The notes under the pieces: generated by a model
What the model saw: only the letters and a program-made list of their open reading frames with translations
Told to the model about the DNA's origin: nothing
The model's database searches: none
Shown here: piece by piece, positions 15,710 to 50,088 of the stretch
Layout of the letters: every line of letters starts with the position of its first letter
How positions within the stretch are numbered: position 1 is the stretch's first letter
Program-made: the position numbers and the translations under genes
Assembly (NCBI GenBank): GCA_947629825.1
Contig: CANRFF010000004.1
Coordinates: 62,001-126,000, forward strand
DNA length: 64,000 bases
DNA from: an uncultured Anaeroplasmataceae bacterium
GTDB taxonomy: Bacteria > Bacillota_I > Bacilli_A > Acholeplasmatales > Anaeroplasmataceae
Direction of reading: 5' to 3'

Positions 15710-15714
15710 TTATA

Positions 15715-15787: not shown

Positions 15788-15791
15788 AATG

Positions 15792-32895: not shown

Positions 32896-32932
32896 GAAAT
32901 CACCTCTTTCACATTCACTTTCATTGTATCAT

Positions 32933-32941
32933 AAACCCGCC
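32933..32941 (-). promoter_or_regulatory. Extended -10 promoter of mnmE-purA-DUF523
   Basis: Minus strand TGATACAAT; same core as the U32 promoter. No convincing -35. Confidence 0.55.
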
Positions 32942-33002
32942 TTGATTTCCACGAAAAACCATTCCCTTTCCCAAGAAAAAAAGAAAGAAGTTTCTCTTTC
33001 TT

Positions 33003-33680
33003 TTACTTAACGGATTTTTTTGCGTTTTTGCGAATCATCAACAACACCAATAATTTCAACCCATTCAAAAGGATTGCCCCTACCGAATTGGCAAGCGTAT
33101 TGACGAAAATAAAAAGAACCGCTTTTCCGCTCCATACATTCGCAAAAGCGAAATAAAAAATATTTGCGATACAGTGATTGAGTTTCAGATAAACAAAGGT
33201 TCCGATCAGCCCAATGACCAAAAGAATTCGGATTCCCAAAACCCATTTTTTGATTTTATAACTTTCGACCGCCGCATATACGAACATTCCGCAAAACATT
33301 CCGCTGAAAAACAAATCCCAAAAACGAAAATTTTCCAATTTGGATTGAACCGTTGTTTCATTTATGGAAAAAAGAGGGGTGTTTCTCAAAATGCCGAATG
33401 CCAAATATCCGACGGCAAGCGCTCCGAACAAATTGCCGACGAACATCAACAAATACTCCCAAACGGAAAATTTTCTTTCTATCGCATAAGCAATTTTACC
33501 GGTAAACAGCCACAATCCGAACACCAATACGAGAATCAGTCCGATACTAAACGCATAGGACGCAATCACATTCCAGTAAACTTGCGTTCCGACAGACTTG
33601 ATTCCCCAAAAAACAATGCCGCCAAGCGCAATCGCCATACCGGCCAAAATCGATAAAATGCTTTTTTTATACCATGGCAT
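33003..33680 (-). CDS. Formate/nitrite transporter (FNT) family channel
   Basis: About 225 residues with six membrane helices. Diagnostic segments are the central His in KLNHCIANIFYFAFANVW and the repeated half-helix regions (FVGNLFGALAVGYL, VNTLANSVGAIL). FNT pentamers pass formate, nitrite, lactate or hydrosulfide. The substrate is not decided by sequence. ATG 33680 is chosen because GGAGGAG lies 6-7 bases before it. Followed by a weak hairpin near 32975-33003. Confidence 0.85.
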   Translation of the reverse strand: MPWYKKSILSILAGMAIALGGIVFWGIKSVGTQVYWNVIASYAFSIGLILVLVFGLWLFTGKIAYAIERKFSVWEYLLMFVGNLFGALAVGYLAFGILRNTPLFSINETTVQSKLENFRFWDLFFSGMFCGMFVYAAVESYKIKKWVLGIRILLVIGLIGTFVYLKLNHCIANIFYFAFANVWSGKAVLFIFVNTLANSVGAILLNGLKLLVLLMIRKNAKKSVK

Positions 33681-33710
33681 ATTCACTCCTCCTTCTTTTG
33701 TTTTTTCGAT

Positions 33711-33833
33711 TTATTTTTTGTGTATCTTAAATTCACATTTCGGATAGTTGGAACAGCCGTAAAATTGCCCGTAAGGTCCTTTTCTTTCGACCAATTTTCC
33801 ACCACATCGAGGACAAATCCCCTGTTTGAGATT
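33711..33833 (-). pseudogene. topA: 3'-terminal fragment of topA (zinc ribbon only)
   Basis: An open stretch of 41 codons between TAG and TAA reads LKQGICPRCGGKLVERK ... GCSNYPKCEFKIHKK. This is the last C4 zinc ribbon of bacterial topoisomerase I (C-P-x-C-G-x, Y-G-C-x-N-Y-P-x-C). The rest of topA should lie on the higher-coordinate side, but AT-rich foreign DNA begins there, and no topA occurs in the rest of the window. It marks an insertion or rearrangement boundary near 33830. Confidence 0.8.
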
Positions 33834-33863
33834 CTATTGTATTTTATCAACTAGCTATATGAA

Positions 33864-34394
33864 TTAAAATTTAAAGTCGCTAGTATCGACTTCAATATCA
33901 TCATCAGGTTCATCGTTTATTGCAAATTTTTCAAGCATTTGATTAATACTTGTTAAATAATCCTCATATCGTAAATTAGTATCTAAAATTAAATTTTCAT
34001 ATAATTCATCTAATCCACCCAACATATACTTTTCAAATAAAGTATAGTTATCATCAGTTTCAGGATTTCTAAATGTTTTATTTAATCTTTCAACAGGATC
34101 AGGATTATCAATTTCGCTTGTCAATAATACAAATTTAAATGCTAATTTTAATTCATTACTATGATTATAAAATTGATTAGCCATTATTCTAAGTGTCCTA
34201 CTATTATCTTTTTCGGGCTCGGCTTTTCTCTTTTTTAGAGCACCAACTAAAGATGCAAATACAAATAATTCAACTGCCGAAGTGAAAATTTGGCTATTAG
34301 AATCAGTATCAATTTTTGATGTTAAAGCAATTACTTTATCTCTTTGAGTTCCTTTAAATAAGTAATCTTCTTGAAACATTGATTTTTTTGCCAT
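33864..34394 (-). CDS. Unrecognised 176-residue protein, last gene of the Ssp-like operon
   Basis: Not recognised. Mostly helical, with a basic N-terminal part (MAKKSMFQEDYLFKGTQRDKV) and a strongly acidic C-terminal tail (NDEPDDDIEVDTSDF). No catalytic motif or membrane segment. It is the last gene of the defence operon, one base after the Rad50-like ATPase gene with a good GAGGTGA ribosome site, so it is probably a partner of that ATPase. The fixed position suggests a subunit of the restriction-like arm, but this is inference. Confidence 0.7.
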   Translation of the reverse strand: MAKKSMFQEDYLFKGTQRDKVIALTSKIDTDSNSQIFTSAVELFVFASLVGALKKRKAEPEKDNSRTLRIMANQFYNHSNELKLAFKFVLLTSEIDNPDPVERLNKTFRNPETDDNYTLFEKYMLGGLDELYENLILDTNLRYEDYLTSINQMLEKFAINDEPDDDIEVDTSDFKF

Positions 34395-34395
34395 T

Positions 34396-36378
34396 CTATT
34401 TCACCTCTCTTATTTCAGAATGATATGTATCTTCTTTTATTAAAGACCATTCACTGCCTATTTGACCACTCATCTGTTCTTTTAAAATTGGTCCATCTTT
34501 ATCATTAATAAACACAATAATTTGTTCAGTAATTTTTGGCATAATTTCACAGAAGCTTCTCATTTGTTTCATCCCAAAATTTGAAGTTGGTGCATCCATA
34601 ACTAATGGATATTCTTCGAAATTATCATCTTCCATAATACTTTCAGGATCGTTATCTTTTTCTCTTATAAGTTTAATAATTGCACCAATAAATGCTAATG
34701 CTATTGCTACATCTTGTCCACCTGATGTAAAATCATCAGATAATTCAGAATCATATGTTCTTATTTGAACACCATAATTTTCATCTAACTTAAATTCTAT
34801 TTTCTCAGTATAAAAATCTTTGAATATTTCATTAATTGCGGCTTCTAATGCTTTACGTTTTTCAGCTTCTTTCTTTTCACAAAATCTTTCAATTCTTTTT
34901 CTTAAATATTCAGATTCATTATAGTATGAGTTTAATTTTTTTACCTTTTCATCATAAATTTTAAATTGTTTTCTTTCTTCTTCTAATTGTTCAACAGTAT
35001 TCTCATATTCTTTTTTTCGATTTGTTTTAACTTCCTTTTCAGTTGAAAGATCAATGACTTTTTGCTCATAATCTTTTTCTTGTTCTTTTAACAAGGAAAT
35101 ATCATCATTAATTTTAATTTCCTCATCTAATTTATTTTTTTCATCAATTAATTCATTGTTTTGTTCTAATAATTGGGCATAATCTTTTCGAGATTTTGTA
35201 AAATCTTCAGAAAAAGATAAATATGATTTTTTAACGTTTTTTATTTCAGATGTAAATTTATCAATTTCAAAACCAATGTTATTTGGTGGCAAGAAAGAAA
35301 TCCAATCGTTTAATTTTTCCCATTCTTTACTATTTTCAACTAATTCATGACCACAAATGCATTTATGATTTTTTAGCATAAATTCTACAGCTTCTACATT
35401 AATGCCAGGAATTCCTTTATCAAGGCAATCTGAATTTTCTAATGTTTTTTCAGCTAAAGGAATCAAAGAATTCATAATTAAATAAATACCATTTGAACTA
35501 AATTTTTTCATAATGTATGTTCTTTGTTCTTGGATTCTTGAATTTATTGGACCTAAATCTGAATTTATTTTATTTCTTCTTCTTTGCTTTTCTTCCACTT
35601 CTGAATATTGTTGGATTTTTGCATTGGTTTCTTCTCTTTTACTTTTATTATATTCTATTTCTGTATCAATATTTTCGAATCTAGAATTTATTTTATTTAT
35701 TTCTTCTTTTGCATCATCAATTTTCTTTAAAATTTCTCTTAATTTATCATCTTTGGTGTTTTTTTCAATTTCAGCCTGATATTCATCGGAAACAGATTTC
35801 AAATGTTTTTTTGCTTCATATAAATGATTAAATCCTAGTAATCCTTTAATTGCCTTTACAAATTCATTATTATTTCCAACCTTACCTTTAGACATTTGTT
35901 CGCCGACTTTAGTTAAACTTTCACCTTCTATGAAGAAATAAGGGAATAAATCGCTATGCATTATTTCTTTAACAACTTTAAAAGCTTCTTTACCCCTTTT
36001 TTGTTGAGTAATTCCATCACTTTCTTTTATATCAACTAAAAGCACTGGCTCTTCAGAACTAATTTGAACATTTTGTTTTCTAAAAGTTTGTTTTCTTGTA
36101 ATTGTATATTCCTTATTATTGTGATTTAAACTAATTGAACACTCTGTCGTTGTTGCTTCTCCTGGTGATAATAGCTGTTTTGTATAGGTATTCAAAGGAT
36201 TTTTATATTTTGAAGTTCCATAAAGAATCCATTGAAAACATTGAATGAGAGTAGTTTTTCCTACACCACTTTCAGCAATAATAATTGTAACTTTTTTGTT
36301 TGGATCAGTAGAAAATGATATGTTTTGCTCTCCAACAAATTGTCTAAAATTTTTAATTCTTAAACTATTTATTATCAT
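34396..36378 (-). CDS. Rad50/DndD-like SMC-type ATPase with zinc hook
   Basis: About 660 residues. Walker A AESGVGKTT near residue 35, a coiled coil to ~310, a CxC-type hook (NHKCICGHELVE) near residue 345, a second coiled coil to ~520, ABC signature TSGGQDVAIAL, and Walker B YPLVMDAPTSNFG. This is the DndD/Rad50 layout: an ATP-driven clamp with zinc-hook dimerisation. In known phosphorothioate-linked defence modules an ATPase of this type belongs to either the modification or the restriction arm; the position here after the helicase suggests the latter. The ATG at 36378 is better spaced from GAGG than the one at 36384. Confidence 0.8.
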   Translation of the reverse strand: MIINSLRIKNFRQFVGEQNISFSTDPNKKVTIIIAESGVGKTTLIQCFQWILYGTSKYKNPLNTYTKQLLSPGEATTTECSISLNHNNKEYTITRKQTFRKQNVQISSEEPVLLVDIKESDGITQQKRGKEAFKVVKEIMHSDLFPYFFIEGESLTKVGEQMSKGKVGNNNEFVKAIKGLLGFNHLYEAKKHLKSVSDEYQAEIEKNTKDDKLREILKKIDDAKEEINKINSRFENIDTEIEYNKSKREETNAKIQQYSEVEEKQRRRNKINSDLGPINSRIQEQRTYIMKKFSSNGIYLIMNSLIPLAEKTLENSDCLDKGIPGINVEAVEFMLKNHKCICGHELVENSKEWEKLNDWISFLPPNNIGFEIDKFTSEIKNVKKSYLSFSEDFTKSRKDYAQLLEQNNELIDEKNKLDEEIKINDDISLLKEQEKDYEQKVIDLSTEKEVKTNRKKEYENTVEQLEEERKQFKIYDEKVKKLNSYYNESEYLRKRIERFCEKKEAEKRKALEAAINEIFKDFYTEKIEFKLDENYGVQIRTYDSELSDDFTSGGQDVAIALAFIGAIIKLIREKDNDPESIMEDDNFEEYPLVMDAPTSNFGMKQMRSFCEIMPKITEQIIVFINDKDGPILKEQMSGQIGSEWSLIKEDTYHSEIREVK

Positions 36379-36553
36379 TTGCATTTACCTCTTTTTCTAT
36401 GATTAATTTAATTCTTTTAACCATATCTTGATTATTAAACTCTTTTTGGTTATAGTTATATTTTTCTAAACCAAGAACCTTTTTTCTAATGTTTTTCCTT
36501 AAATCACTTTCTACAAACTTTGTTGTATTATTATTGTTATTCGTTTGTTCCAT
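36365..36553 (-). CDS. Small 62-residue protein of the Ssp-like operon
   Basis: Very polar, Asn- and Lys-rich, with a likely helix pair (DLRKNIRKKVLGLEKY and MVKRIKLIIEKEV). It overlaps the helicase gene by 17 bp and the ATPase gene by up to 20 bp. A strong GGGAGG site inside the helicase gene is correctly spaced for ATG 36553, which makes it a real gene despite its size. Perhaps an adaptor between helicase and ATPase; no family recognised. Confidence 0.7.
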   Translation of the reverse strand: MEQTNNNNNTTKFVESDLRKNIRKKVLGLEKYNYNQKEFNNQDMVKRIKLIIEKEVNANDNK

Positions 36554-38732
36554 CTTCTAATTCCTCCCATTCTATTTTTTCAAATATTTCACTTTCGTTA
36601 ATTTTATTTAAACCAAATTTATTGGTTATTTCATTAATAATTATATCACTTTCATGCTCGTTTTCAGCAAGACTAGAAAATTCTTTCATTCGATTAACTT
36701 CATTTCTAGCTAATGCAGTAAAACTTTCAACAATATTTTCGTTATAATCCTCCGTTTCATCTAATGAAAATGGCAATGTAACAAAATCGTAAATATATGA
36801 ATACGCCTTACCTTTAAATTTTCTTAGAACACGACCTCTTCTTTGTATGTATTCTCTAGGATTTGTGCTACTTGCTAATATAAATGCTGTTTCAATACTT
36901 GGTATATTTACACCTTCATCTAAACATTTTATAGCAACAACTGCTTGGAGATCATCTCCATTTTTATATCTTTCCGAAATTATGTGCCTTTCTTCTGTTG
37001 TTTCTCTTGACGTATATCTAGCAATTTTCATACCAAGTTCATTCCCTAACATTTTGCATACTTCATCAATTTGCTTTTCTTCTTCACCATGATCACCTGA
37101 TATTTTTCCAGTTCCACAATATACTAATAAATTGTGTTTGTCAGTAAAACCTTTTTCAATCATTAATTTTTTCAAAGCACCAAGTTTGTTTTTTGCAGAA
37201 GCTATTACTCTTGCTCTTAATAAAGCATATATTTCTCCTTGCTTTGTAAGTTTCATTACATTTCCTTGCAAATAACTATTTTTTCTAATTTTGTCAGTAA
37301 GTTCTACATATTTTTCTTGTTCTTCTTCATTCAAATATACAAGAATAGGATAGTAATAGTATCTAGTTAATACCCCATTATCAATTGCTTCTTTCAAACC
37401 ATAATGAATTACGGGTTTACCAAAATATTCGTATATAGCATCAGTTCCTTCTTCATCTCTATGTCTATCAATTGTGGCTGATAATCCAATTCGGAATTTA
37501 AAATTGTCAATCAATGCATTTCGCATTCCCTCAGCCCCAAAATTATGAACTTCATCGGCAATGAATAACACATTACCTTTTAATTGTCTTAATATTTTTT
37601 GGACTTTTTCAAGTTTAAACGAAGATGTTGTTGTAATAAAATAAAAATAATTTGTAATTCCATCATTAAAATCCTGAACTAATTGATTTAATTTTGATAA
37701 ATAATTAGAGTATTTTTTAATAGAATATCCAATTAAAAAATTGATGTTAAAATTTGATTGTTCTTCAACCCATTGTTCAACAAGATGTGTGTAAGGACAA
37801 ACAATGATTGTTGCCATCTTATATTTTAAACGCTCTAACAATTTAACACTTGCAGTTAAAGCTGTTATAGTCTTACCTGTTCCTGTTCCCATATCAAACA
37901 AACCAATAAAATTTTGATTGGCCCATTTATTAATTGCATTTTTTTGATATTCGTATAGTTCAAATTTACAATTATATTTTGGATAAGTTTCAATAATTTT
38001 TCTTTTTTCCTTTTCAACTTTTTCATATTCATCTATATTTTTGATATAAGAAGGCTTTTGATATTTAAATAATTTTTTTGATACAGCTTCTGGAAAATCA
38101 CAAACAAATAATAAATGTGTTTTATTTTCCCATAATCTTTCAAAATCATCATCTATAATTGAAACTCGTTTAGTTTCTTCCCAACTTTTAAAAACTTGAA
38201 TTGATTCAAAGTTTCTAGAATATGCATTATCAGATTCATTTAATGAACCGCTGAAAGCAACTTTATCTTCATTTTCGTCAATAAACAAACCAATTTTTTC
38301 ATGAAACATTCCAATATCGTTTTCATCATATTCATCCAACTTATTAGCCACTTTAATATCTAAAATCCCTTTTTCTATTAAATGACATAAATAATTTAAT
38401 CTTTCGCACTCAAATTCATCAGTGGTATCTTTAAATTCCCTTAATAATGCATTTTCAATAACTTGATTACGATTTTGATATCCTTTTTTTATAGCTTCAA
38501 CATCTTCTTTATATAAAATAGGAGATACAACAAAATAAATATGACATCCTTCTCTCTCTGCCATAAAACTAATCCCTCTTGAAAGTTTTATCAATGCAGA
38601 TGAAGAAAAGAATCCAACAGCTCTTTTATAAATAACAGAATGTTCAAGCATTTTAGAAACAAAAAATGTTCCTAAATCTGAACAAGTATCAGATCTATAA
38701 GAATCTTTAATTTCAATATTTCTAAAACTCAT
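36537..38732 (-). CDS. PLD-type nuclease fused to SF2 helicase
   Basis: About 731 residues. Residues ~1-200 resemble a phospholipase D superfamily nuclease with one H-x-K motif (MFHEKIGLFID) followed by SGSLNES. Residues ~245-700 are a DEAD/DEAH-like SF2 helicase: GTGTGKT (motif I), ADEVHNFG (II), LSATI (III), and QRRGRVLRK (VI). Such fusions unwind and cut DNA in restriction systems. ATG 38732 is preferred, five bases after GGAGG; a TTG at 38744 is possible. It starts the second half of the operon, just after the cysteine desulfurase gene. Probably the effector that attacks unmodified DNA. Confidence 0.8.
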   Translation of the reverse strand: MSFRNIEIKDSYRSDTCSDLGTFFVSKMLEHSVIYKRAVGFFSSSALIKLSRGISFMAEREGCHIYFVVSPILYKEDVEAIKKGYQNRNQVIENALLREFKDTTDEFECERLNYLCHLIEKGILDIKVANKLDEYDENDIGMFHEKIGLFIDENEDKVAFSGSLNESDNAYSRNFESIQVFKSWEETKRVSIIDDDFERLWENKTHLLFVCDFPEAVSKKLFKYQKPSYIKNIDEYEKVEKEKRKIIETYPKYNCKFELYEYQKNAINKWANQNFIGLFDMGTGTGKTITALTASVKLLERLKYKMATIIVCPYTHLVEQWVEEQSNFNINFLIGYSIKKYSNYLSKLNQLVQDFNDGITNYFYFITTTSSFKLEKVQKILRQLKGNVLFIADEVHNFGAEGMRNALIDNFKFRIGLSATIDRHRDEEGTDAIYEYFGKPVIHYGLKEAIDNGVLTRYYYYPILVYLNEEEQEKYVELTDKIRKNSYLQGNVMKLTKQGEIYALLRARVIASAKNKLGALKKLMIEKGFTDKHNLLVYCGTGKISGDHGEEEKQIDEVCKMLGNELGMKIARYTSRETTEERHIISERYKNGDDLQAVVAIKCLDEGVNIPSIETAFILASSTNPREYIQRRGRVLRKFKGKAYSYIYDFVTLPFSLDETEDYNENIVESFTALARNEVNRMKEFSSLAENEHESDIIINEITNKFGLNKINESEIFEKIEWEELEDGTNE

Positions 38733-38746
38733 ACTGCCCTCCAATT

Positions 38747-39871
38747 TTATAATGTATTTAATGCATCAATCAATACATTGATTTCTTCTTTAGTGTTAAA
38801 TGCTCCAAAACTAACTCTAACTGTGCCACCATTTTCTTTTGTTTCAATAAAGTCGTGAACCAACGGACTACAATGATATCCAGTTCTTACGCAAATATCA
38901 AATTCATCGGACAAAATATTTCCTACTTCTTCAGGCGAATAGCCATCTACATTAAATGAAACAATACCAAGATTTTTATCTAATGGTGGCATATATATTT
39001 TTATTTTATCATTTTTTTGCAACTTTTCTAAAAAATATGTGACTAGCTCACGCTCATGAGATTGTAAGTCTATTTCTTTTAACCAGTCAATGCTTTTAAT
39101 TATACTGTAAATAGCAATTATATTTTGAGTTCCAGATTCATATCGTCTATATGAACCTTCTGGCATTTTATGATTAAGTGAATTAGATCCATTTCCTCCA
39201 CTTTTAACTATATTTAATTTATAATCATTAACATTAATGAAACCAGCAATTCCAAACGATGCATATAAAGATTTGTGCCCAGCAAAAACAATAAAATCAC
39301 AATTATTTTTTTGAGGATTTATAATTCCAAATGACTGAGCACAATCTACAATGTTTATGGAACCATATTCTTTTCCTTTTTTAAATATTTCTTGATATGG
39401 CACAATATACCCAGTAACATTGCTGACATGTGAAATAAAAATGTAATTTGGATTATTTCTAGCAAACATATTTGTTAATATATCATTTTTAATTTGCCAA
39501 GTTTTATTATCAAATGGAAGAATATGTATATTAAATTTTATTTTTTCCATTAAATTATATAAAGGTCTAATTATTGCATTATGTTCAAACGGCGAAATAT
39601 AAACATTGTCATTTTCTTTTATTCCAAGACCATTAATAATAATATTTAATGATTCAGTAGCACTAGAAAAGAAAGCAACATTCTCACTATCAGAATTTAC
39701 TAAATCAGCAATGTTTTTTCTTGCTAAATTTATAATATTCATAGCATCATTTGCTTTTTTATATGTTCCTCTTCCAGCATTAAAAGCAAGATTTCTACTT
39801 GCAAAATTAATTGCATCATAAACCACTTCTGGTTTTGGATATGTTGTAGCACTATTATCAAAATAAATCAT
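38747..39871 (-). CDS. Cysteine desulfurase, SspA/DndA-like
   Basis: About 374 residues, fold-type I PLP enzyme. MIYFDNSATTYPKP at the start, a PLP lysine in FAGHKSLYASFG, and the mobile catalytic Cys in VRTGYHCSPL. It transfers sulfur from cysteine as a persulfide to the SspD-like protein for DNA phosphorothioation. Embedded in the operon between the SspC-like ATPase and helicase genes (gaps of a few bases). ATG 39871 is seven bases after AGGAG. A housekeeping IscS role is less likely given the AT-rich defence context. Confidence 0.85.
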   Translation of the reverse strand: MIYFDNSATTYPKPEVVYDAINFASRNLAFNAGRGTYKKANDAMNIINLARKNIADLVNSDSENVAFFSSATESLNIIINGLGIKENDNVYISPFEHNAIIRPLYNLMEKIKFNIHILPFDNKTWQIKNDILTNMFARNNPNYIFISHVSNVTGYIVPYQEIFKKGKEYGSINIVDCAQSFGIINPQKNNCDFIVFAGHKSLYASFGIAGFINVNDYKLNIVKSGGNGSNSLNHKMPEGSYRRYESGTQNIIAIYSIIKSIDWLKEIDLQSHERELVTYFLEKLQKNDKIKIYMPPLDKNLGIVSFNVDGYSPEEVGNILSDEFDICVRTGYHCSPLVHDFIETKENGGTVRVSFGAFNTKEEINVLIDALNTL

Positions 39872-39881
39872 ACACATACTC

Positions 39882-42800
39882 CTATAACATTTTTTTGACT
39901 AATTCGCTTAGTATAGAAATTTTTTCATTTGTTGAAACACTGTCTGAAAACTCATCTAATATACTTTCTAAATTATTTTTTAAAAGGCTTCCCATAGGTG
40001 TTTCTTCAGAAATGCCATTATATATATTTAATGGAGCTTCTTTAATTTGCTCTGAATTTTTAATACTATCAATAAATTTAATTATTATCTCATATACTTC
40101 ACTTGTTTTATCATTATCCCAATCTTCTATATACAAATGAACACAAGCTTTACAAATACTATTAACTGTTTCTAAATCATCATATGATAAATCATTTTGT
40201 ATTGTATTGAAAATTAATCTTTCGTTATCATTTAAAATTAATTTATAACCGGTTTTAGTATAATTATTCATTATTTTGTTTAATTCCATTTTTAAGCTAG
40301 ACTGAAAATTAATAGTAAATAATTCTTTAATTTTTTTAACGATAGAGTTTTTATAAGCATTTAACTTTGTTTCAAATATGTCTTTTGTTTTTTCAATACA
40401 TTTATATAAATCTTTATAATTTTTAATTGTAAATATTTTTTTGGGATTTTCAAAAATAGATTCATATGGATTAATATTAAATGATAAGAATAGTGATTTA
40501 AATGCTATTGTGCTTTCATCTAATTGTAAATAATTATTTTTTAAATTGTTTGATCGTATTATTTGAGGTTGTCCAACAAAAAATTTTTTAATTGCATTAG
40601 ATAATAAAATTGTATCTTTTCTAAAATTATCAACAGAAGCAACATTAAATAGCTTTAATAACTTTTCTAAATAAATTTTTTGCTCGTTAGAACTTTTAGA
40701 AAAACTTATATTATAATTATCATTCGAAATTGATTTAACTATATTTCCTGAATCTAAGTCAATTTCTTTACCCTGATAATACAAAATTACATTATCAGAT
40801 AATTCTGAAATTGCTTTCGCTAATATTAATGGTAAAATACCAATTCTAATTCCATATGGAGGCAAAGTAAGACTCATCATATGTCTACAAATATTAAATT
40901 TTTTATCGTTACTATTACTAATTTTGTGTTTAATGTCATCAATAATATATCTAAAATTTTGATTTTTTAAATTAGAATCAATAACAGCATTTTTTATTGA
41001 CATTTCAGGACTAGTAGGTGAATAAATAAATTCATCATTTTTTTCAATGAGATAATCAATAACATGATTAATTGCCTTTTGATATTGAGTTGTTACACTC
41101 TTTTTATTTATCAATTCATTATTAAAAGTTATAGGAACAGTATAAATTCTTTCTAATGTTAAACTTAATAATTCATTAAAGCAAACATCCTCATTTAAAC
41201 TCGAATAAAATCTCACTCCTATTTCATAATATTTTCTAATCAATTCTTTTACATCTATTTCAGTTTCTTCTAGTAATAAATCTATTTCGTGACTTGATAT
41301 TTCATCAATACCCTTTTTATTTTTAATTTCAAGCAAACATGCATATCGTAATAATAATTTGTCAAAATTATTTCCTATAAATTCATCAGGATATTTAATT
41401 ATTACACTTGGATTATTAATTTCATTGATTTTATTATGTATTTTGTTTTCGGAAATAGTCTTACGTAATAAATAAATAACTAAGCCATCACAATATTTAT
41501 CTTCTAAAACATAATCAAAATTATATAATTCCAAAAATTCATTTTCATCTAAAAATACAACTCTAAAAAATCTAGTTATTTTATTTTTCTCATTATATTT
41601 TCTGGGAATCATATATTTTCGATCATTTATTAATTCAGCATATTCACTTACTTTCAAATTTTTAAATTTTGTTTTTGATAAATATTCTATCCTGTCTTCA
41701 ATATGTTTTGAATTAGATAATGCAAATGATAATAAATTATTAAGTATGTTTTTTCTTAAATAATGTTTTTCTAATAATTTAATAATTGATTCTTTAACTT
41801 TGTTTAAATCTGAGTTTAAAGCTAAAGAAATAATTTCATCTGATGGAGGTAATCTATCAAAATCATTAATCATTAATATTAAAGCTAAAACTTTAATTAT
41901 TTTCTTTTCATTTATGTCTTCTGTTTTAGATAAAACTGATTCTGCTCTATACCATATGTTTCTTATGTGATTAGTTTCTTCTTTTTGAAGTAAATTGTAA
42001 AAATAATCATATATTTTATCAACATTAAATAGACCATCATTATTATTATGAATAAAAGAATTAAATGAATTTTCATCACTATCTGATAAAAATGTAAATA
42101 AAGTTCTTTCATTTTGAGCTACAAATTCTGATAATTGAATTAAAACATACACAGTTATAGGATTTAAAGGAAAACAACCAGCAAATAATTCTTCATCAAT
42201 TTTATTTGAATTAAAAACAGAAATATTTTTTATTTCTTCATAAAATTTTTTGTTTTTTGATAAATAATCATTTGTAATTGATGTTGCAGTATTTTTCTTT
42301 TTTATAGCATATGAAATGATTTGATAGTTTTCATCTAAACTTCTATTAAATTTAATTTCTTTAAATCTACCCTCAACAGTTTTAAAATTATCCATTCCAT
42401 TATTTTTCTTTTCATTTGAAAAATATAAAGAAATACTTTTATGAGTTACACAACATAAATTAATTTGCTGTTTTGTATTACTTCTTGAACATAACTCAGC
42501 CATATCTTGAATAATTTTTAAATCTTTCATTAAATTTTTGGAATTGCTTTCCAAGAATTTTGAAAACTCATCAAATACAATGAACATTCCAGAATATCCA
42601 TTTTTTATTAATTCTGCATTTATATCTGAATATATTTTTATAATATCGTTATTGACCAATGGATTAAAATTCAATCCAATATTCATGCAATTATATAATT
42701 TCTCAAATTGCTTATATGCTACAGGAGAATAATTTTTTAATTCATTTTCTAATTCTTTAATGTTAATTTTATATAATTCTAAACATTTATTTAATATATC

Positions 42801-43313
42801 TTTTTTTATTTTTTCATCATTCATCCATTTTTCAATTAAATTTAGACATACATTATATGCTGTTTCAGGAATTAAATCTTCTAATTTTTCTCTTTTTAAT
42901 GCATCATTTAAAGCTAATTGGAATGATTGTGTAATATTGTCATAATTGGAATTTACAATTATTGTCATTAATGAAATTTTTTTTGCTTTTAAATCAGTAA
43001 TCATTTCATACAATTCTAAATCAACATTTTTAATTTTTCTTGCTAAATTATTCCAGCATTTAGAATTTTTATTATTGCTTAAAAGATAAGATAACACTAA
43101 TAATAAAAATGATTTCCCTTTACCATAGGGACCAACAAGTGTAGTTGCTCTCTCATTATTGAATCCAAGAATTGATTTAATGTATATTTTTAAAACATCG
43201 CAGATATCTGTTGTAGGGATGTATTCATCAATTTTATTTTCATTTTCTAAATCTAATTCCAAATTAATTGAAGATTGGAAATTTTTATTTATGTAAAAAT
43301 TATTGCTATACAT
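39882..43313 (-). CDS. Large P-loop ATPase, SspC-like
   Basis: 1143 residues. Walker A VGPYGKGKS at residues 60-68 and a Walker B-like GMFIVFDEFSKFLES near residue 270 mark an AAA-type core at the N-terminus. The rest is a long, mainly helical body without clear domains, ending in a probable helical bundle. In Ssp phosphorothioation modules the C protein is a large ATPase working with the B nickase and D sulfurtransferase. Very AT-rich, Asn- and Lys-rich. TAATG coupling with the DUF4007 gene. The N-terminus also recalls BREX BrxC and DUF499-type ATPases, but no other BREX gene is present. Confidence 0.75.
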   Translation of the reverse strand: MYSNNFYINKNFQSSINLELDLENENKIDEYIPTTDICDVLKIYIKSILGFNNERATTLVGPYGKGKSFLLLVLSYLLSNNKNSKCWNNLARKIKNVDLELYEMITDLKAKKISLMTIIVNSNYDNITQSFQLALNDALKREKLEDLIPETAYNVCLNLIEKWMNDEKIKKDILNKCLELYKINIKELENELKNYSPVAYKQFEKLYNCMNIGLNFNPLVNNDIIKIYSDINAELIKNGYSGMFIVFDEFSKFLESNSKNLMKDLKIIQDMAELCSRSNTKQQINLCCVTHKSISLYFSNEKKNNGMDNFKTVEGRFKEIKFNRSLDENYQIISYAIKKKNTATSITNDYLSKNKKFYEEIKNISVFNSNKIDEELFAGCFPLNPITVYVLIQLSEFVAQNERTLFTFLSDSDENSFNSFIHNNNDGLFNVDKIYDYFYNLLQKEETNHIRNIWYRAESVLSKTEDINEKKIIKVLALILMINDFDRLPPSDEIISLALNSDLNKVKESIIKLLEKHYLRKNILNNLLSFALSNSKHIEDRIEYLSKTKFKNLKVSEYAELINDRKYMIPRKYNEKNKITRFFRVVFLDENEFLELYNFDYVLEDKYCDGLVIYLLRKTISENKIHNKINEINNPSVIIKYPDEFIGNNFDKLLLRYACLLEIKNKKGIDEISSHEIDLLLEETEIDVKELIRKYYEIGVRFYSSLNEDVCFNELLSLTLERIYTVPITFNNELINKKSVTTQYQKAINHVIDYLIEKNDEFIYSPTSPEMSIKNAVIDSNLKNQNFRYIIDDIKHKISNSNDKKFNICRHMMSLTLPPYGIRIGILPLILAKAISELSDNVILYYQGKEIDLDSGNIVKSISNDNYNISFSKSSNEQKIYLEKLLKLFNVASVDNFRKDTILLSNAIKKFFVGQPQIIRSNNLKNNYLQLDESTIAFKSLFLSFNINPYESIFENPKKIFTIKNYKDLYKCIEKTKDIFETKLNAYKNSIVKKIKELFTINFQSSLKMELNKIMNNYTKTGYKLILNDNERLIFNTIQNDLSYDDLETVNSICKACVHLYIEDWDNDKTSEVYEIIIKFIDSIKNSEQIKEAPLNIYNGISEETPMGSLLKNNLESILDEFSDSVSTNEKISILSELVKKML

Positions 43314-44173
43314 TAAATCATTTCCCCCTTAAAATATTCTCTAAAAATATCTTCTAAATTCAATTTCTTATCAAAATAAACTGTATTTAGTCCAGCAGTT
43401 TTATTAATAGTAATCAATTGATTTTTTTTCATCTCTTCTAAATATTGTAAATACATATTTTTATCTAAATTAAAAATTTTCATCGGCGAATTAATTTCAT
43501 CAATTGAATCTTCTATATTAAATGAATTACCTTCATACAAATCTTGCAAACAAATATAAATTATTAAATATGACAAACCTTGATATAATGGTTTTGTTTT
43601 AATATACTTATCATCTTTCTTTTCAAGTAGTCTAAGATATGACAATGGACAGACATAATTATCTTCAGGATTGTCAACTTTGTTTTCGTTAATATAAGAT
43701 TTTAACAAAACCCCCGTATCTTCTTCTATGTATTCTTTCTTTACGTTTAAGTCTAAAGTTTGAAAATATGTATTAATTAATGCAACAAAATCATTTTTTG
43801 TAAATGTTTTAATATCCATATTGAATAATCCATAAAATAGTGGACATTCTTTCATGTTTTTCACTAAATTATAGTGAATTAAAAAAATTGAAAAATTATC
43901 TTCTAAATATCTATCATATTTATATAAAAGATTTCCAAACAAAGATAATTCTGTTTTTGTATTTGAGGCAACTATAACATTAGAAGCTTGTAACCAATAC
44001 TTTAAACTCTTTACCATGTTTGATCCTATACCTAATATAGAAATTCCATTATTTTTACTAAAAATATTTACTTGATTATTTTCATAGATCAAATTTATTG
44101 CTTTTTCTAACCAACCATCTCTTAAATAGAAGCTTTCATTTTTTTTAAATTTTAATGTAAGAGTATTATTCAT
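43313..44173 (-). CDS. DUF4007 protein, SspB-like nickase component
   Basis: About 286 residues. The DUF4007 pattern is clear: FYLRDGWLEKAINLI, then ISILGIGSNMVKSLKYWLQAS, then YLEDNFSIFLIHYNL. DUF4007 occurs in phosphorothioation clusters next to the PAPS-reductase-like gene, where the SspB protein nicks DNA to allow sulfur insertion. ATG 44173 fits AGGGTGA better than GTG 44182. Overlaps the SspD-like gene by 8 bp and the SspC-like gene by 1 bp. Confidence 0.8.
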   Translation of the reverse strand: MNNTLTLKFKKNESFYLRDGWLEKAINLIYENNQVNIFSKNNGISILGIGSNMVKSLKYWLQASNVIVASNTKTELSLFGNLLYKYDRYLEDNFSIFLIHYNLVKNMKECPLFYGLFNMDIKTFTKNDFVALINTYFQTLDLNVKKEYIEEDTGVLLKSYINENKVDNPEDNYVCPLSYLRLLEKKDDKYIKTKPLYQGLSYLIIYICLQDLYEGNSFNIEDSIDEINSPMKIFNLDKNMYLQYLEEMKKNQLITINKTAGLNTVYFDKKLNLEDIFREYFKGEMI

Positions 44174-45920
44174 TATATTCACCCTGTTTAGTTCTCAATA
44201 CCTTTTTCATATAGCATCCTCCATCAAAATGTTTAACACATTCAAGGCACCCTACACATTTTGATTCATCTATTGTATATGAGATGGAATTGTTGCTAAC
44301 TTCTCCTTTCATTAAATTGTTTACTTTTAACGCATTAAATTTACATACACTTTGACAATAAGTGCATCCAATACATGTTTGATATTTTGTTATTTGATTT
44401 TTTATTAATTCGGTGATTTGCTTAAAATTTTTAAAAGGTGGAATAACATTCAAAATAGTAATTTTTAATTCTCTTTTTCCGGTTTTTCCAGTTAATTTTA
44501 ATAATGGATCTGAAGTATTTCTGGATAATACATATACTTCACCTAATCTTTTGTTACCAATTTCAAAATTCAATGTTCCAAATGGTTTGAATAAAGTATA
44601 TATAGTAGAATCTATATCCTTTGATAAACTAAAATTTATACTATTTTCATCGAAAGCACATGGTTTAAATGTGACAACCGCATTTTTACTATGTTCTAAT
44701 CCATTTCCACCTTGTCTAGCTTTCCATTTACCTTCATCCACATATATTTTCCAATCTTCTTTACCTACTTTTTTTGCAAAATCATATAAAATATTTTTAA
44801 ACTTTACGTATTGTTGATTCATATAAATAGAAGCTAAAAATTCAGACCAACCACTATTGTTAGGACAACACCAACAACCCACTCTCGAAAATCCTTGTCT
44901 ATAAGCGTAGTTAAATGGAATTTTATTTGCAAGTATATATAACCAAACATCAAAGTCCATCCAATCTATTATTGGAGATGAAACTTTTTGTTTAGTAATT
45001 TTAGGGCTATCAGTATCTCTATCATACTTGCTTCTAGATGAAGATTCAGCTCTTCTAATTCCTTGAAAAGATAAAAGCTTCGTTTTATTTTTAAATAATT
45101 GTTCAATTTTTTTTGTTATTGCTCCAGTTTTAAAAATAGTGCAACACCATCTCATTACTCTGCTTGGTGGACCAACAACTTCACATAAATTATTAAAATC
45201 TTGTTCAGTGTTTTTAGCGATTAATAGCGGTGTTTTAGGATAGCTTTTTTTGAATTCAGAAATATATTGTGCAGAAGTAGGATATTCTAAAGTAGTATCA
45301 CCATATATGTGTAAAATGCTTTCGGTTCCTAAAGCTCTAACAACCAAATTACTTGTTACAGTAGAGTCTTTTCCTCCGCTAAAAGAAACAAAAATACTTG
45401 ATAAATCATATTTTGAGGAAATTTCTTTAATATACTCTATTGCCTCAGATGTAATTAAATTTAATCTTAATTTATTACAGTTGATAAAATCATTTATAAA
45501 CTTATTAGTCAAATCTGTTTCAATATATTTTCTGTTTTCTTTTTCATATTTTTTTAGTTTGTCTATAATTTCTAGAGGTTCTCTTTTTCTTAATTCAGAA
45601 AATGAAATTTTAAATTTTTTTCCATTTAATAAATAATTATTTGATCCTGTACACCACAATGATTTTTCAGCAAATTCAAATGGTCTATTTAGTAACACTT
45701 CAAGAAGTAATCGTTCTTCTGCAAACACAGGTCTTAAATCTGTTCCCACTTTTCTACATTCAGAGTCACAAATAGGACAACTATTAGAAAAAAGAGGTGA
45801 ATTGCATTTATCACAATAATAAACTTCAGTAGATAATAAATCAGCTCTATTTCCACATACCGGGCATGTGCTAGTTTCACAAATTAAATTGTCACAATTC
45901 TTGCATACAAACTTTTGCAC
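44166..45920 (-). CDS. PAPS-reductase-fold sulfurtransferase with zinc ribbons and ferredoxin, SspD/DndC-like
   Basis: 584 residues. Residues 1-60 have several C-x2-C zinc-ribbon pairs. The PP-loop SFSGGKDSTVTS (about 179-190) binds ATP, and MRWCCTIFKTGA is the typical later motif. The C-terminus has two 4Fe-4S clusters: CIGCTYCQSVC and CVGCLECVKHF. It would activate the DNA backbone phosphate by adenylation and deliver sulfur. First gene of the operon, starting with GTG 45920 eight bases after GAGGGG. Known DndC/SspD proteins share the PP-loop and Fe-S chemistry. The N-terminal ribbons resemble those of phosphoadenosine reductase-like proteins in other Ssp/Dnd clusters. Confidence 0.85.
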   Translation of the reverse strand: MQKFVCKNCDNLICETSTCPVCGNRADLLSTEVYYCDKCNSPLFSNSCPICDSECRKVGTDLRPVFAEERLLLEVLLNRPFEFAEKSLWCTGSNNYLLNGKKFKISFSELRKREPLEIIDKLKKYEKENRKYIETDLTNKFINDFINCNKLRLNLITSEAIEYIKEISSKYDLSSIFVSFSGGKDSTVTSNLVVRALGTESILHIYGDTTLEYPTSAQYISEFKKSYPKTPLLIAKNTEQDFNNLCEVVGPPSRVMRWCCTIFKTGAITKKIEQLFKNKTKLLSFQGIRRAESSSRSKYDRDTDSPKITKQKVSSPIIDWMDFDVWLYILANKIPFNYAYRQGFSRVGCWCCPNNSGWSEFLASIYMNQQYVKFKNILYDFAKKVGKEDWKIYVDEGKWKARQGGNGLEHSKNAVVTFKPCAFDENSINFSLSKDIDSTIYTLFKPFGTLNFEIGNKRLGEVYVLSRNTSDPLLKLTGKTGKRELKITILNVIPPFKNFKQITELIKNQITKYQTCIGCTYCQSVCKFNALKVNNLMKGEVSNNSISYTIDESKCVGCLECVKHFDGGCYMKKVLRTKQGEYNE

Positions 45921-45964
45921 ATTATTCGCCCCTCTATTTGAAAATCATTTTGTAAATTTATCTT

Positions 45965-45973
45965 ATTATATCA
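45965..45973 (-). promoter_or_regulatory. Extended -10 promoter of the Ssp-like operon
   Basis: Minus strand TGATATAAT, about 45 bp before the GTG start; only T-rich sequence at -35. The only good promoter found for the eight genes. Confidence 0.55.
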
Positions 45974-46259
45974 CATTTACTGGAGAAAAAAAAGTAATTA
46001 GATTATTTATAGCCAGCGGTTCCTTAAAACTTAATTTTTAATTATATTAAATAATAATCAATATATTACGAATCGGTTTAAAAATCACTTAAGACATGAT
46101 TCGAGTTTGCCTTAAAATTCAAATATTTAATAAATTTTTGTTTTATTGTGAGGACATTGTTGAGAGGATAAAAAGAGGCCGATTATGGACAATTTTAAAA
46201 AATAATAAGTCTTTTCTTCGAACGTTTGATTAATATTTGATTGATAACGCCTATCATCA
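45974..46259. other. Intergenic AT-rich stretch, no gene seen
   Basis: Between the defence operon promoter and the broken lipoprotein gene. No sustained open frame on either strand; likely decayed DNA. Confidence 0.5.
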
Positions 46260-46630
46260 TCAAAAGAATCCCATGGCGATAAATAAATCTATATGCATGT
46301 ATTGCCATTTTCTTTTGATGTTTGTTCATAACTAACACTAGTAAGGGTAATGAAATAGTTCTTAGTTGAAATTCAAAACCAGTGACATCCTGACCTTCTT
46401 TGGAAGGATATGCGTTGGTTGCGGTTTTGGATCTAAGTTATGCCATTGTAAAATTTGGCATATCCATTTGATGTTTAGTAGGTGTTGGTTCCAGAGTAAA
46501 AACATCTTCAAATGTTAATTTGGAATAATCAACGTTTTCTTCCTCTTCTTTTTTGCTACAGCCGGTAAATAACCCTAGACACAAGGTAACCATAAATGGC
46601 AAGGTAAATAATTTAAAAATTTTTTTTCAT
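46260..46630 (-). pseudogene. Broken lipoprotein gene (poly-A frameshift and internal stop)
   Basis: ATG 46630 has a GGAG site six bases upstream, but with eight As after it the frame stops at codon 6. With seven As it would read MKKIFKLFTLPFMVTLCLGL then F-T-G-C, a lipoprotein signal with lipobox, and go on through SKKEEEENVDYSKL. A TAA after FTMA interrupts a still-coherent continuation (LRSKTATNAYPSKEGQD) to a TGA near 46260. Two lesions make a dead gene more likely than phase variation. Function unknown. Confidence 0.6.
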
Positions 46631-46657
46631 ATTCTTCTCCTTCTTCTTACTCATAAG

Positions 46658-46905
46658 TTATTTTGTTAATTTTTTTTCTTGAGATTTGTTAGAAATCAAA
46701 TCCTTGAACTGCATTGGACTTTGTAAATTCAATTTAAAAGGTTTTGTCGATGCAAAATCTTTATCTTGGAAGACCTGTCCATCAGAGATCCTTTTTAACG
46801 TTGCCACGTCTTTTGTTTGTCCGGGCAACAATTCTAAATCTTGAATTATAAATTCTTCTCCGTCCATTTTAAAAGATGATCCAATTAATGTATATGGCTC
46901 TGCTT
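46658..46905 (-). pseudogene. Short open frame, fragment of unknown protein
   Basis: 69 codons from ATG 46867 (MDGEEFIIQDLELLPGQTK), but the frame is open and protein-like upstream (RYKEAEPYTLIGSSFK) to a stop near 46905, with no SD before the ATG. It probably belonged to a larger gene, perhaps together with the broken lipoprotein 27 bp downstream. Not recognised. Confidence 0.4.
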
Positions 46906-46940
46906 CTTTGTATCGAACTTTTTTATTTTTTTAATAGTTC

Positions 46941-47513
46941 TTACTCTGTTAAGATGTTTTTATTTGTACCTTGTTTAGCAATCCACTCTAAACACTTTTG
47001 TTCTAATAATGTGAAGTCTACTGTTGCATTTAAGTATCCAGGCACTATTTTTTCTTTCCAATAATTTTTATTGGTTTCATTAAGTTTTTGACTATATACC
47101 AAATTTGCACTTGTATTTATTTCTTTTTTTATTAACGATATGGCTGCTAATTGTTTTTTTAACAAACGAATATATTTTTTTTCGTTCTCGGTTTTATTAG
47201 AAAAAGATAAGTCTATAGGCTCAATTTCTGATTTTGGGGCCGGAATCATATTATTTAAAAGCAATTTCCCAACAAATTCATTTTTAAAATTTAATCGTTT
47301 AATGGCAAGAGTTGACTTTCTGGGGTTACCATTAATATAGTCCTTTTGATCTGGAGAAGACAAAGGAATAAAGTAAGGCATATTAGAATTGTTTATGACA
47401 ATGCCCAAATGTGGCCTTTGAAAGGTTCTATCCTTCTTATGGCTAGACAAAACTTTGCTGTCATTATCGGCCAAAAAAGATATATATTCATCTGTTATTT
47501 TATATAAAATCAT
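46941..47513 (-). CDS. ToxN/AbiQ-like type III toxin endoribonuclease
   Basis: About 190 residues. The start MILYKITDEYISFL, then RPHLGIVINNSNMPYFIPLSSPDQKD, a basic LAIKRLNFKNEF region and a helical end (LLKKQLAAISLIKKEI) match the ToxN/AbiQ/TenpN family in order and length. These toxins are sequence-specific RNases that are inhibited by, and cleave, the repeat RNA encoded upstream. Exactly that arrangement is present: promoter, three 40-bp repeats, terminator, toxin. ATG 47513 has AGGGTGAT upstream; upstream GTG/ATG codons are less well spaced. Such loci cause abortive infection during phage attack and stabilise plasmids. Confidence 0.85.
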   Translation of the reverse strand: MILYKITDEYISFLADNDSKVLSSHKKDRTFQRPHLGIVINNSNMPYFIPLSSPDQKDYINGNPRKSTLAIKRLNFKNEFVGKLLLNNMIPAPKSEIEPIDLSFSNKTENEKKYIRLLKKQLAAISLIKKEINTSANLVYSQKLNETNKNYWKEKIVPGYLNATVDFTLLEQKCLEWIAKQGTNKNILTE

Positions 47514-47575
47514 TGACATCACCCTTTTCTCGTATTTTAGATAATTATATTATCAGACGCATTTTTTTACAAGGA

Positions 47576-47608
47576 AAAAGGACATTAAAATAATGTTAAT
47601 GTCCTTTT
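47576..47608 (-). terminator. Intrinsic terminator between antitoxin repeats and toxin
   Basis: A perfect 13-bp stem (AAAAGGACATTAA / TTAATGTCCTTTT) with a 7-base loop and a TTTTT tail on the minus strand. It limits toxin read-through, as in known toxIN loci. Confidence 0.9.
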
Positions 47609-47612
47609 CTAT

Positions 47613-47732
47613 GATTTTTTAGGTTCGCCTTTATACGGTAGCGAATCACCGAGATTTTTTAGGTTCGCCTTTATACGGTAGCGAATCACCGAGATTTTTT
47701 AGGTTCGCCTTTATACGGTAGCGAATCACCGA
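47613..47732. repeat. Three perfect tandem 40-bp repeats
   Basis: Units 47613-47652, 47653-47692 and 47693-47732 are identical, with no unique spacers. They form the body of the antitoxin RNA. Confidence 0.97.
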
Positions 47733-47757
47733 GATTTTATGTGGTATTTCTACCTAC
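47613..47757 (-). ncRNA. Type III antitoxin RNA (ToxI-like), three repeats
   Basis: Transcribed from the promoter at 47764-47792 through three 40-bp repeats to the terminator. Each repeat on the minus strand contains GGTGATTCGCTACC, where GGT and ACC can pair, while the enclosed TTCGC pairs with a downstream GCGAA. This is an H-type pseudoknot like that of ToxI. From memory, the ToxI repeat of Pectobacterium shares the GGTGATTTGCTACC core. An A-rich linker separates units and is the likely cleavage site. Confidence 0.85.
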
Positions 47758-47763
47758 ATTTTT

Positions 47764-47792
47764 ATTATATGCTAAAATTAAAAATATTACAA
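47764..47792 (-). promoter_or_regulatory. Promoter of the type III toxin-antitoxin locus
   Basis: Minus strand TTGTAA (47787-47792), 17-bp spacer, TATAAT (47764-47769), about 30 bp before the first repeat. Confidence 0.8.
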
Positions 47793-47804
47793 TAGTAAAT
47801 TTAC

Positions 47805-48495
47805 CTTTTATGAAAACCTGTTTAATATAGGCTTCGAGCTCCTCTTTTGTAGAAAAGATTTTTTCAATAGCCTCTATATGCTCTGGATCTATATTTTTGT
47901 AGTAAATAGATAATTAAAATTTTGTTTTACCGTAGAATATAATTTTTTGACGAATTTATGTAATTGTTCAAACACAGTAATATCCAATCCTTTCGCAGTC
48001 AACTCTTCTCTTAAATTGTGTCTTTCTTCATAAGATGAATCAAACAATAGATTGTCGTTATTTTCGGCTATCTTTTTAGCTTCTAAAGTATTATTAATAT
48101 CTGTATTATTTGTGTTAAATTTCTTTACCTCTTGAAGTTCAATTTTTAAACCTCTTGACATTAAATTGTTTTAAATAAATCAGCGATGGATTTCCTAACC
48201 CTTGTTTTTTCCGCTCTATAAGACCTTTTTCTTTTAATTCTTTTTGAATTTTTGAGATTGTTGCATTAGATGTCCTTAAAATTTCATTCATTTCTTCTCT
48301 AGTAAAAATTATATAAACATTTCCATCGTTGTCACACCAATCATTGATTCTGGATAAACTCATTCGATCTAAAAATAACCCATACAATACTTTGGCATCA
48401 GTCGAAAAATCCGTTTCGTTATTCTTTTTAATAATCCCATAATCAAATGCCTTTCTGTATTTACGATATTCGTTTGGATGATCCATTTTTAACAA
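47805..48495 (-). pseudogene. Frameshifted RepA-type replication initiator
   Basis: The first part (48139-48495, 118 codons) has the RepA_N replication-initiator pattern: FSTDAKVLYGLFLDRMSLSR, VYIIFTREEMNEIL, EKGLIERKKQGLGNPSLIYL. It then shifts frame near 48165 into SRGLKIELQEVKKFN and NTNNTDINNT (47889-48161), the usual next segment of these proteins. Another frame continues IDPEHIEAIEKIF to about 47805. Such initiators belong to Gram-positive plasmids and integrated conjugative elements. Remnant of a mobile element that may have brought the toxin-antitoxin locus. Confidence 0.65.
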
Positions 48496-48504
48496 GTTCT
48501 GTGA

Positions 48505-48530
48505 ATGAGGGAATCAAAGTCCCTTGCCTT
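48505..48530. repeat. 26-bp partial copy of tRNA-Gln (possible attachment-site relic)
   Basis: 25 of 26 bases match 50119-50144, the anticodon arm and adjoining D-arm side of tRNA-Gln, in the same orientation. The single difference lies in the anticodon loop. Only the DUF4143 ATPase gene lies between the copies. Confidence 0.75.
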
Positions 48531-48548
48531 TTGAGAAAATTCAAGCCT

Positions 48549-49892: not shown

Positions 49893-49913
49893 AGCGCACT
49901 CCCCTTTAACCTT

Positions 49914-49941
49914 ATTATATCAAACAAAGAAAAAAATTCAA
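49914..49941 (-). promoter_or_regulatory. Promoter of the DUF4143 ATPase gene
   Basis: Minus strand TTGAAT (49936-49941), 16-bp spacer, TATAAT (49914-49919), with an AAGGGGAG ribosome site further down. Confidence 0.7.
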
Positions 49942-50050
49942 GCGAAAAACACATCTATTTGGCAAATTTTTATAGGGAATGTTGCCCGTTTTTGGTAAAT
50001 TTTCAGACGGAATCAATATATTAAGAATTCTTTGCGCAAACAAAAACAAA

Positions 50051-50074
50051 AGAGGATTCCATATAAATCCTCTT
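50051..50074 (-). terminator. Intrinsic terminator after tRNA-Gln
   Basis: AGAGGATT / AATCCTCT stem with a 7-base loop, followed by TTTTGTTTTTG on the minus strand. Confidence 0.75.
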
Positions 50075-50088
50075 GAGTAACTATGAAA

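Follow-up and report, generated by a model that had tools for sequence, protein, structure and literature searches.

An operon of eight genes on the minus strand of a contig from an Anaeroplasmataceae bacterium (GCA_947629825.1, contig CANRFF010000004.1) is likely to encode a hybrid defence system based on DNA phosphorothioation (PT), in which an Ssp module would mark the DNA of the host and the products of pbeABCD would block DNA that lacks the mark. The window analysed here is a stretch of 64,000 nt (positions 62,001 to 126,000 of the contig, forward strand), and coordinates given below without a locus label are positions within it. Both modules are known and have PADLOC models; their combination is recurrent and apparently undescribed, but the restriction arm is not a new one. 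This reading draws on PADLOC and Pfam matches, the predicted DndE fold of PbeD, transfer of the genes as a block, the ordered recurrence of the pairing in other genomes and the finding that Ssp is the only PT writer detected in the host.

The eight open reading frames (ORFs) run from 45920 down to 33864 in the order sspD-sspB-sspC-sspA-pbeA-pbeB-pbeC-pbeD, and neighbours either overlap by 1-20 nt or are separated by gaps of 1-4 nt. All eight were confirmed, together with the tight packing, strand and order given in a preliminary description of the window, and six of the proteins are named by Pfam, PADLOC and NCBIfam. The operon has a G+C content of 21-27%, against about 38-45% in most of the remaining window. 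A near-identical copy is present in a genome from another family of the same class (G161), where one aligned block of 12,211 bp (window 33862-46068) is 97.3% identical, is delimited by the last stop codon and by a point 148 bp above the first gene, and is accompanied by nothing else that matches in the 20 kb compared; the G161 stretch has a similar G+C content of 20-30%. This single block shows that the eight genes moved horizontally as one unit, and because the copy ends at the last stop codon and some 150 bp above gene 1, the bounds of the operon at 33864-45920 are exact. Few protein-changing substitutions separate the two copies: seven genes have ratios of nonsynonymous to synonymous substitution rates (dN/dS) of 0.07-0.22, the small ones among them with few changes, and pbeB has a ratio of 0.57 on 8 changes only. 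These ratios, and the recurrence of the same genes in the same order elsewhere, indicate that the operon is real and more than a product of chance.

Modification and restriction halves

Genes 1-4 are assigned by their Pfam and PADLOC matches to an Ssp PT module, sspD-B-C-A, with an SspD of the ferredoxin-bearing, BREX-4-like kind. The first gene, sspD (44166-45920, 584 aa), encodes a PAPS-reductase fold (Pfam PAPS_reduct 1.3e-31) with a zinc-finger-like N-terminus and a C-terminal ferredoxin (Fer4_7 5.7e-7); among PADLOC models it scores best with BrxP, from BREX type 4 (1.8e-85), and reaches only 8.5e-11 with SspD. An SGGKDS loop is found in all 26 ferredoxin-SspD proteins from Pbe-linked loci, and the combination of PAPS reductase and ferredoxin has also been found in a subset of SspD proteins (PMC12839542; papers given by PMC number are cited from portions of their open text). 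The DUF4007 protein SspB (43313-44182, 289 aa; Pfam DUF4007 2.3e-62, PADLOC SspB 2.3e-45) matches solved SspB (6juf/6lb9) at 3.6e-5, and its gene adjoins sspC, as expected of an Ssp module. SspC (39882-43313, 1143 aa) is a BrxC-related P-loop ATPase that scores 1.3e-86 with the PADLOC SspC model against 1.4e-24 with BrxC, and a Walker A motif is present in 40 of 40 SspC proteins of Ssp-Pbe loci. SspA (38747-39877, 376 aa) is a cysteine desulfurase (Pfam Aminotran_5 1.1e-75) for which the PADLOC SspA and DndA models tie (2.5e-37 and 8.7e-37). DndC is absent above cut-off in the 96%-complete host genome, where the sole response came from the PAPS domain of SspD (44.8 bits against 290.4), making Ssp the only PT writer found. 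Two other loci hold a protein of 62-65 aa from the Se_S_carrier family between sspA and pbeA (L061:7208-7396, 4.7e-13; L081:9800-9997, 1.7e-13), possibly an added sulfur-relay step.

Genes 5-8 are not SspF/G/H or SspE but PbeABCD, also called the 'CxC-DndE' set, which is known from Dnd systems. PbeA (36537-38744, 735 aa from a TTG; an ATG four codons inside agrees better with relatives) is a PLD nuclease fused to an SF2 helicase (PADLOC PbeA 5.9e-227; Pfam PLDc_2 4.1e-8, ResIII 2.1e-22), with HxK, Walker A and DExH residues that are invariant across 7 aligned relatives and a match to TIGR04095 (3.1e-151, 504 bits) that lies under its cut-off of 600. PbeC (34396-36384, 662 aa) is a Rad50/DndD-like ABC ATPase with a C-x-C hook, the CIC sitting mid-protein (PADLOC PbeC 6.2e-97, DndD 3.7e-24); no solved relative was found at 0.001, and by pattern a simple CxC occurs in 24 of 38 Ssp-linked PbeC proteins and Walker A in 31 of 38. 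The PADLOC Pbe models cover PbeA and PbeC nearly end to end. PbeB (36365-36553, 62 aa) is named for its position and likeness, having no credible match in Pfam, PADLOC or NCBIfam, one at chance level aside. Its length, its place and its dN/dS of 0.57 agree with PbeB being a small, fast-evolving protein. Of the 38 Ssp-linked loci in which pbeA and pbeC are both long enough, 37 have a small ORF between the two; ten Bacillota-type PbeB copies can be aligned, E, N and MV positions being conserved among them, and the Bacteroidota counterparts look unlike them.

The last gene, pbeD (33864-34394, 176 aa), encodes a protein that best matches DndE by predicted fold and not by sequence profile. Its family match, TIGR04062 dnd_assoc_4 (5.1e-5), is far under cut-off and no match lies above any curated cut-off; profile comparison with DndE gave no link (probability 0.4%), and a search of PDB sequences with the PbeD profile gave 0 matches at E<=10. 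An AlphaFold2 model built from 21 aligned homologues has a mean predicted local distance difference test score of 85.4, and in a VIA comparison its top three matches were the DndE entries 7x4e (Z 8.1 over 110 of 114 residues), 4lrv (6.8) and 5wtu (6.3), followed by F-plasmid relaxosome chains at Z 4.8, although the tool describes scores near Z 8 as common. A control model of DndE from a Dnd locus gave the same ranking with higher scores (16.7, 13.6 and 13.4, then 9.2). In Foldseek alone, 4lrv was second (E 0.86, probability 0.69), behind an unrelated receptor. The fold link, which comes from the VIA comparison, is drawn because the two hit lists share their order and because the helices and strands of the two proteins share theirs, and it agrees with the naming of PbeD as a DndE cognate (PMC10853773).

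The domain readings made earlier from the sequence were upheld, the domains now identified being PAPS reductase with a 4Fe-4S ferredoxin, DUF4007, an SspC-type ATPase, a class-V aminotransferase (cysteine desulfurase), PLD with SF2 helicase, and an AAA_23/Rad50-like ATPase with C-x-C in a coiled coil. By PADLOC and Pfam identities, the first four genes would modify and the last four restrict, as the preliminary description had it. Its doubt that the latter are SspF, SspG and SspH was also well placed: an SspFGH arm was rejected on the grounds that no such model is among the matches listed for the eight proteins (for PbeC, the best 25 of 57), the host having been examined for SspFGH and DndFGH in the operon only, and the SspFGH models do match another Ssp locus (L063). 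An SspE arm was rejected because Pfam finds no DUF262 protein in the operon; one such protein, with an open frame of 373 aa, is encoded elsewhere in the genome. The suggestion of a distinct restriction arm, marked out by the 62- and 176-residue proteins and the fused PLD-helicase, did not survive, as these are PbeB, PbeD and PbeA of a set described with Dnd systems (PMC6459918) and later reinterpreted (PMC10853773). The gene set is unusual in the pairing of Ssp with Pbe and not in the restriction arm itself.

Three known systems overlap with the operon. DndCDEA-PbeABCD (PMC6459918), which is the CxC ABC-ATPase/DndE system of PMC10853773, agrees with the operon in its four restriction genes, in their order and in their domain content (PLD-SF2 helicase, small protein, CxC ABC ATPase and DndE-like protein), but its writer is Dnd (DndCDEA), whereas that of the operon is Ssp (SspDBCA). 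SspABCD-SspFGH and SspABCD-SspE (PMC8092258) share the modification genes SspB, SspC, SspD and SspA; the operon differs from them in its SspD, a ferredoxin-bearing protein closest to BrxP, and in having PbeABCD as its restriction arm. BREX type 4 (BrxP/BrxC; PMC12839542) has in common a PAPS reductase with a ferredoxin region, DUF4007 and a BrxC/SspC ATPase; in the operon, however, DUF4007 and the PAPS reductase are separate proteins, the effector is PbeABCD, and the host genome gave 0 matches to PglZ, BrxL not having been searched for. The Ssp-Pbe pairing is not named in the portions covered of the open literature on pbeABCD, of PMC8092258, PMC12839542, PMC7464106 or PMC11931770, supplements and subscription papers being outside this scope. 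As far as the available text of these papers goes, dnd and ssp strains with pbeA-D are treated together in PMC7464106, where Ssp-Pbe strains may therefore be counted, and PMC9239217 and PMC8053081 list partners without stating which writer goes with which.

Recurrence and origins of the pairing

The Ssp-Pbe pairing recurs, and is seen from both the Pbe side and the Ssp side. Six genomes have the same gene order (G297, G291, G180, G410, G406 and G408), with PbeA about 37-44% identical; in four of them PbeC or PbeD is cut by contig or stretch ends. Genome contigs were scanned with a profile built from Ssp-linked PbeA rows only, and the best 80 of 199 loci were kept, of which 78 hold PbeA. Their examined flanks contain SspB or SspC in 24 cases, only a short SspD in 2, Dnd in 22 and neither in 30; given the make-up of the profile and the cut at the best 80, 24 of 78 is not a frequency. 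Ferredoxin SspD is present in 12 of the 24 Ssp-linked loci, for example in Solobacterium, Anaerovibrio slackiae, Selenomonas, Eubacterium An11 and a Methanobrevibacter-binned contig (L066), the last from a metagenome-assembled genome in which misbinning is possible. The order D-B-C-A-PbeA is kept in 23 of 26 loci with ferredoxin SspD and Pbe (the window and its near copy included), and in 17 of these 23 the gap between sspA and pbeA is <=32 bp. PbeA also occurs on plasmids (28 records). One of the 30 loci with neither system in its flanks, from Peribacillus muralis (L063), continues into SspB, SspC and a short SspD (L213). The order there is PbeABCD, then SspFGH, then SspB-SspC-short SspD, which is one Ssp writer with two restriction arms.

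From the Ssp side, DUF4007 was found in 29 of 398 genomes from the phylum of Eubacterium sp. An11 (Clostridia-type) and in 26 of 395 from that of Hyunsoonleella flava (Bacteroidota), phylum names of sampled genomes being inferred from the named seed. PbeA adjoins SspB at 12 of the 29 and 6 of the 26 loci, or 11 of 28 and 5 of 25 without the seed genomes (L170, L194), which had been chosen for carrying the pairing. SspF with SspG lies beside SspB at 4 of 29 and 0 of 26, an SspF-like protein alone at 2 and 2, and the remaining loci (9 of 29 and 12 of 26) have none of these, nor the helicase-ATPase pair described below, or are cut; many sampled loci stop at contig ends. In the sample of the window's own phylum, SspC is present in 8 of 392 genomes, with PbeA adjoining in 6, or in 5 of 7 once G000 is excluded. 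The 18 Pbe-positive SspB loci include some broken genes (pbeA in short pieces in L163, pbeC as two ORFs in L178, a PbeA of 477 aa in L197) and departures in layout (Pbe genes first in L159, Pbe on the opposite strand in L205 and L206).

A third recurrent partner of Ssp is an SF2 helicase that lacks a PLD domain and is nearest to PbeA, accompanied by a GHKL-type ATPase (L054:41-3527; also L171, L173, L186, L187, L189, L191, L198, L199 and L212). Of the SspB loci sampled, 2 of the 29 and 6 of the 26 have this pair as neighbour, and so do two genomes in the sample of the window's own phylum. Some Ssp loci are accompanied by a DndB-family protein (7.7e-32, L111:7056-8818) next to a sub-cutoff GIY-YIG protein, with similar genes in L113, L117, L206, L201, L171 and L068. 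In L157, sspBCD is followed by a 1524-aa protein (13039-17613) that has a NERD domain, two stretches resembling kinases and, at its C-terminal end, a part like SspF (1.8e-37).

A tree of PbeA from 92 loci has a Bacillota-centred branch of 35 rows, 32 of them Ssp-linked, and a Bacteroidota branch of 16 rows, 15 of them Ssp-linked; one further Ssp-linked row, L203, stands apart. The tree excludes PbeA proteins <560 aa as well as L071, L170 and L194, which are duplicate loci, and L063 was assigned to Ssp by hand because of L213; it comes from a quick search under one model, and 28 of its 89 inner branches are open. A tree in which all 48 Ssp-linked rows group apart from the 24 Dnd rows was rejected by an approximately unbiased (AU) test (p-AU 1.3e-7), the grouping following gene neighbourhood but having been tested after the tree was known. 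The pairing has therefore arisen, or been exchanged, more than once.

Proposed mechanism and alternatives

Ssp places PT on a single strand (PMC8092258), and Pbe in combination with Dnd requires PT and acts by blocking the replication of viruses, protection being impaired when any one pbe gene is deleted (PMC6459918). In the proposed hybrid system, SspA would draw sulfur from cysteine and SspD would relay it, its own ferredoxin perhaps giving electrons, while the SspB-SspC pair would locate sites and install the PT mark, probably single-strand, in host DNA. PbeC and PbeD, as the counterpart of the DndD-DndE pair, would scan DNA for the expected marks, and where these are missing PbeA, a putative PLD nuclease and translocase, would be switched on and would stop replication of the DNA or damage it. 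PbeB may be a small regulator or adaptor.

How far the two halves behave as units was assessed from distance correlations, with the near copies L039 and L056 excluded. For the ferredoxin class the within-half values are 0.885 (PbeA-PbeC) and 0.59 (SspC-SspD), and between halves they are 0.40 for PbeA-SspC (p 0.002), 0.13 for PbeA-SspD and 0.08 for PbeA-SspA, the last two not significant; in Dnd-linked loci PbeA-DndC gives 0.29. These ferredoxin-class values fit two coherent, slowly recombining modules, and for this class they bear out the division after gene 4 that had been proposed from the sequence. The Bacteroidota loci (n 9-14) count against such modules, as their halves co-vary as tightly as PbeA and PbeC do, with PbeA-SspC at 0.69 (n 9), PbeA-SspD at 0.71 and PbeA-PbeC at 0.70 (n 13). 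When all Ssp-linked loci are pooled the between-half values are higher (PbeA-SspC 0.72), because the pooled loci span two clades.

Several observations weigh against the hybrid reading. The link between PbeA and SspC in the ferredoxin class is moderate only and those to SspD and SspA are not significant, and the 30 PbeA loci with neither Ssp nor Dnd in the examined flanks suggest that Pbe may not need PT everywhere. The Dnd-Pbe system is reported to cause no visible DNA cleavage, contrary to a nuclease role (PMC6459918), and the PLD motif pattern is missed in 6 of 48 Ssp-linked PbeA proteins, although the PLD domain has been argued to mean that cleavage is part of Pbe action (PMC10853773). The co-variation values and the loci without a visible PT writer, along with the occurrence of Pbe near methyltransferase genes (PMC6459918), would suit two systems that act independently and have no more than a transcription unit in common, with Ssp making marks for another use and PbeABCD working alone or with another modification. 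We nonetheless consider such independence unlikely: the coupling is repeated, ordered and nearly gapless, it has more than one origin, and exactly these eight genes were transferred together.

Two other explanations are far less probable. That the last four genes form a new restriction arm unrelated to any named one would accommodate the 62- and 176-aa proteins, which lack family matches above curated cut-offs, but it is hardly credible in view of the near end-to-end PADLOC matches of PbeA and PbeC, the predicted DndE fold of PbeD, and SspF/G/H models that match L063 and are not among the listed matches of the operon genes. A BREX type 4 system, or a remnant of one, would account for the matches of SspD to BrxP and of SspC to BrxC; it is, however, very improbable, with DUF4007 encoded by a separate gene, SspC models that outscore BrxC, and no PglZ in a nearly complete genome in which BrxL was not among the targets.

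There is roughly an even chance of a further reading, in which PbeABCD serves as a plug-in restriction module and its DndD/DndE-like sensor pair has, on two or more occasions, been re-tuned so that it reads or tolerates the asymmetric single-strand PT of Ssp. One effector family would thereby serve writers of double-strand PT, single-strand PT and perhaps methylation, and SspDBCA-PbeABCD would then represent an undescribed class of PT defence and a main partner of 'orphan' Ssp modules. SspE and SspFGH are lacking at 2,211 of 2,678 sspBCD loci, undiscovered restriction partners having been given as one possible reason (PMC8092258), and PbeABCD would be a partner of the kind supposed. The presence of one effector family with both Dnd and Ssp writers, and exchangeable between them, makes it testable whether Pbe responds to the PT mark itself, to its sequence context or to its strandedness.

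Insertion site and neighbouring features

The operon lies in a stretch between mnmE and tRNA-Gln (32896-50088) that looks inserted and that also carries a RepA_N remnant and a type III toxin-antitoxin pair. The distance between mnmE and tRNA-Gln is 145-866 bp in five of eight same-genus stretches, against 17 kb here; no tRNA-Gln was found in the other three, of which one stops next to mnmE and two extend over >4 kb. Insertion marks at tRNA-Gln span 48139-50163; they include a 26-bp near-copy of part of the tRNA at 48505-48530 and, beside it, a 118-aa RepA_N piece (48139-48495).

Above the operon, the minus-strand stretch 45921-46068 is taken to travel with it, as the 97.3% block ends at 46068. 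It contains an extended -10 motif recognised by eye, TGATATAAT at 45973-45965; promoter-like sites are not enriched relative to shuffled sequence (88 against a mean of 99.5). The other end adjoins a 55-aa ORF (33683-33850) that reads like a zinc finger of the topoisomerase type; it may be what is left of a gene at the edge of the insertion, and it has no Pfam match at 0.01.

The toxin-antitoxin pair (46941-47738) encodes a ToxN/AbiQ toxin (Pfam ToxN 1e-30, PADLOC AbiQ 2e-32) preceded by 3.2 perfect copies of a 40-nt repeat. The repeats gave nothing near a gathering score in Rfam and are probably the antitoxin RNA. Further along, a DUF4143 ATPase (48549-49892) matches the PADLOC candidate PDC-S01.

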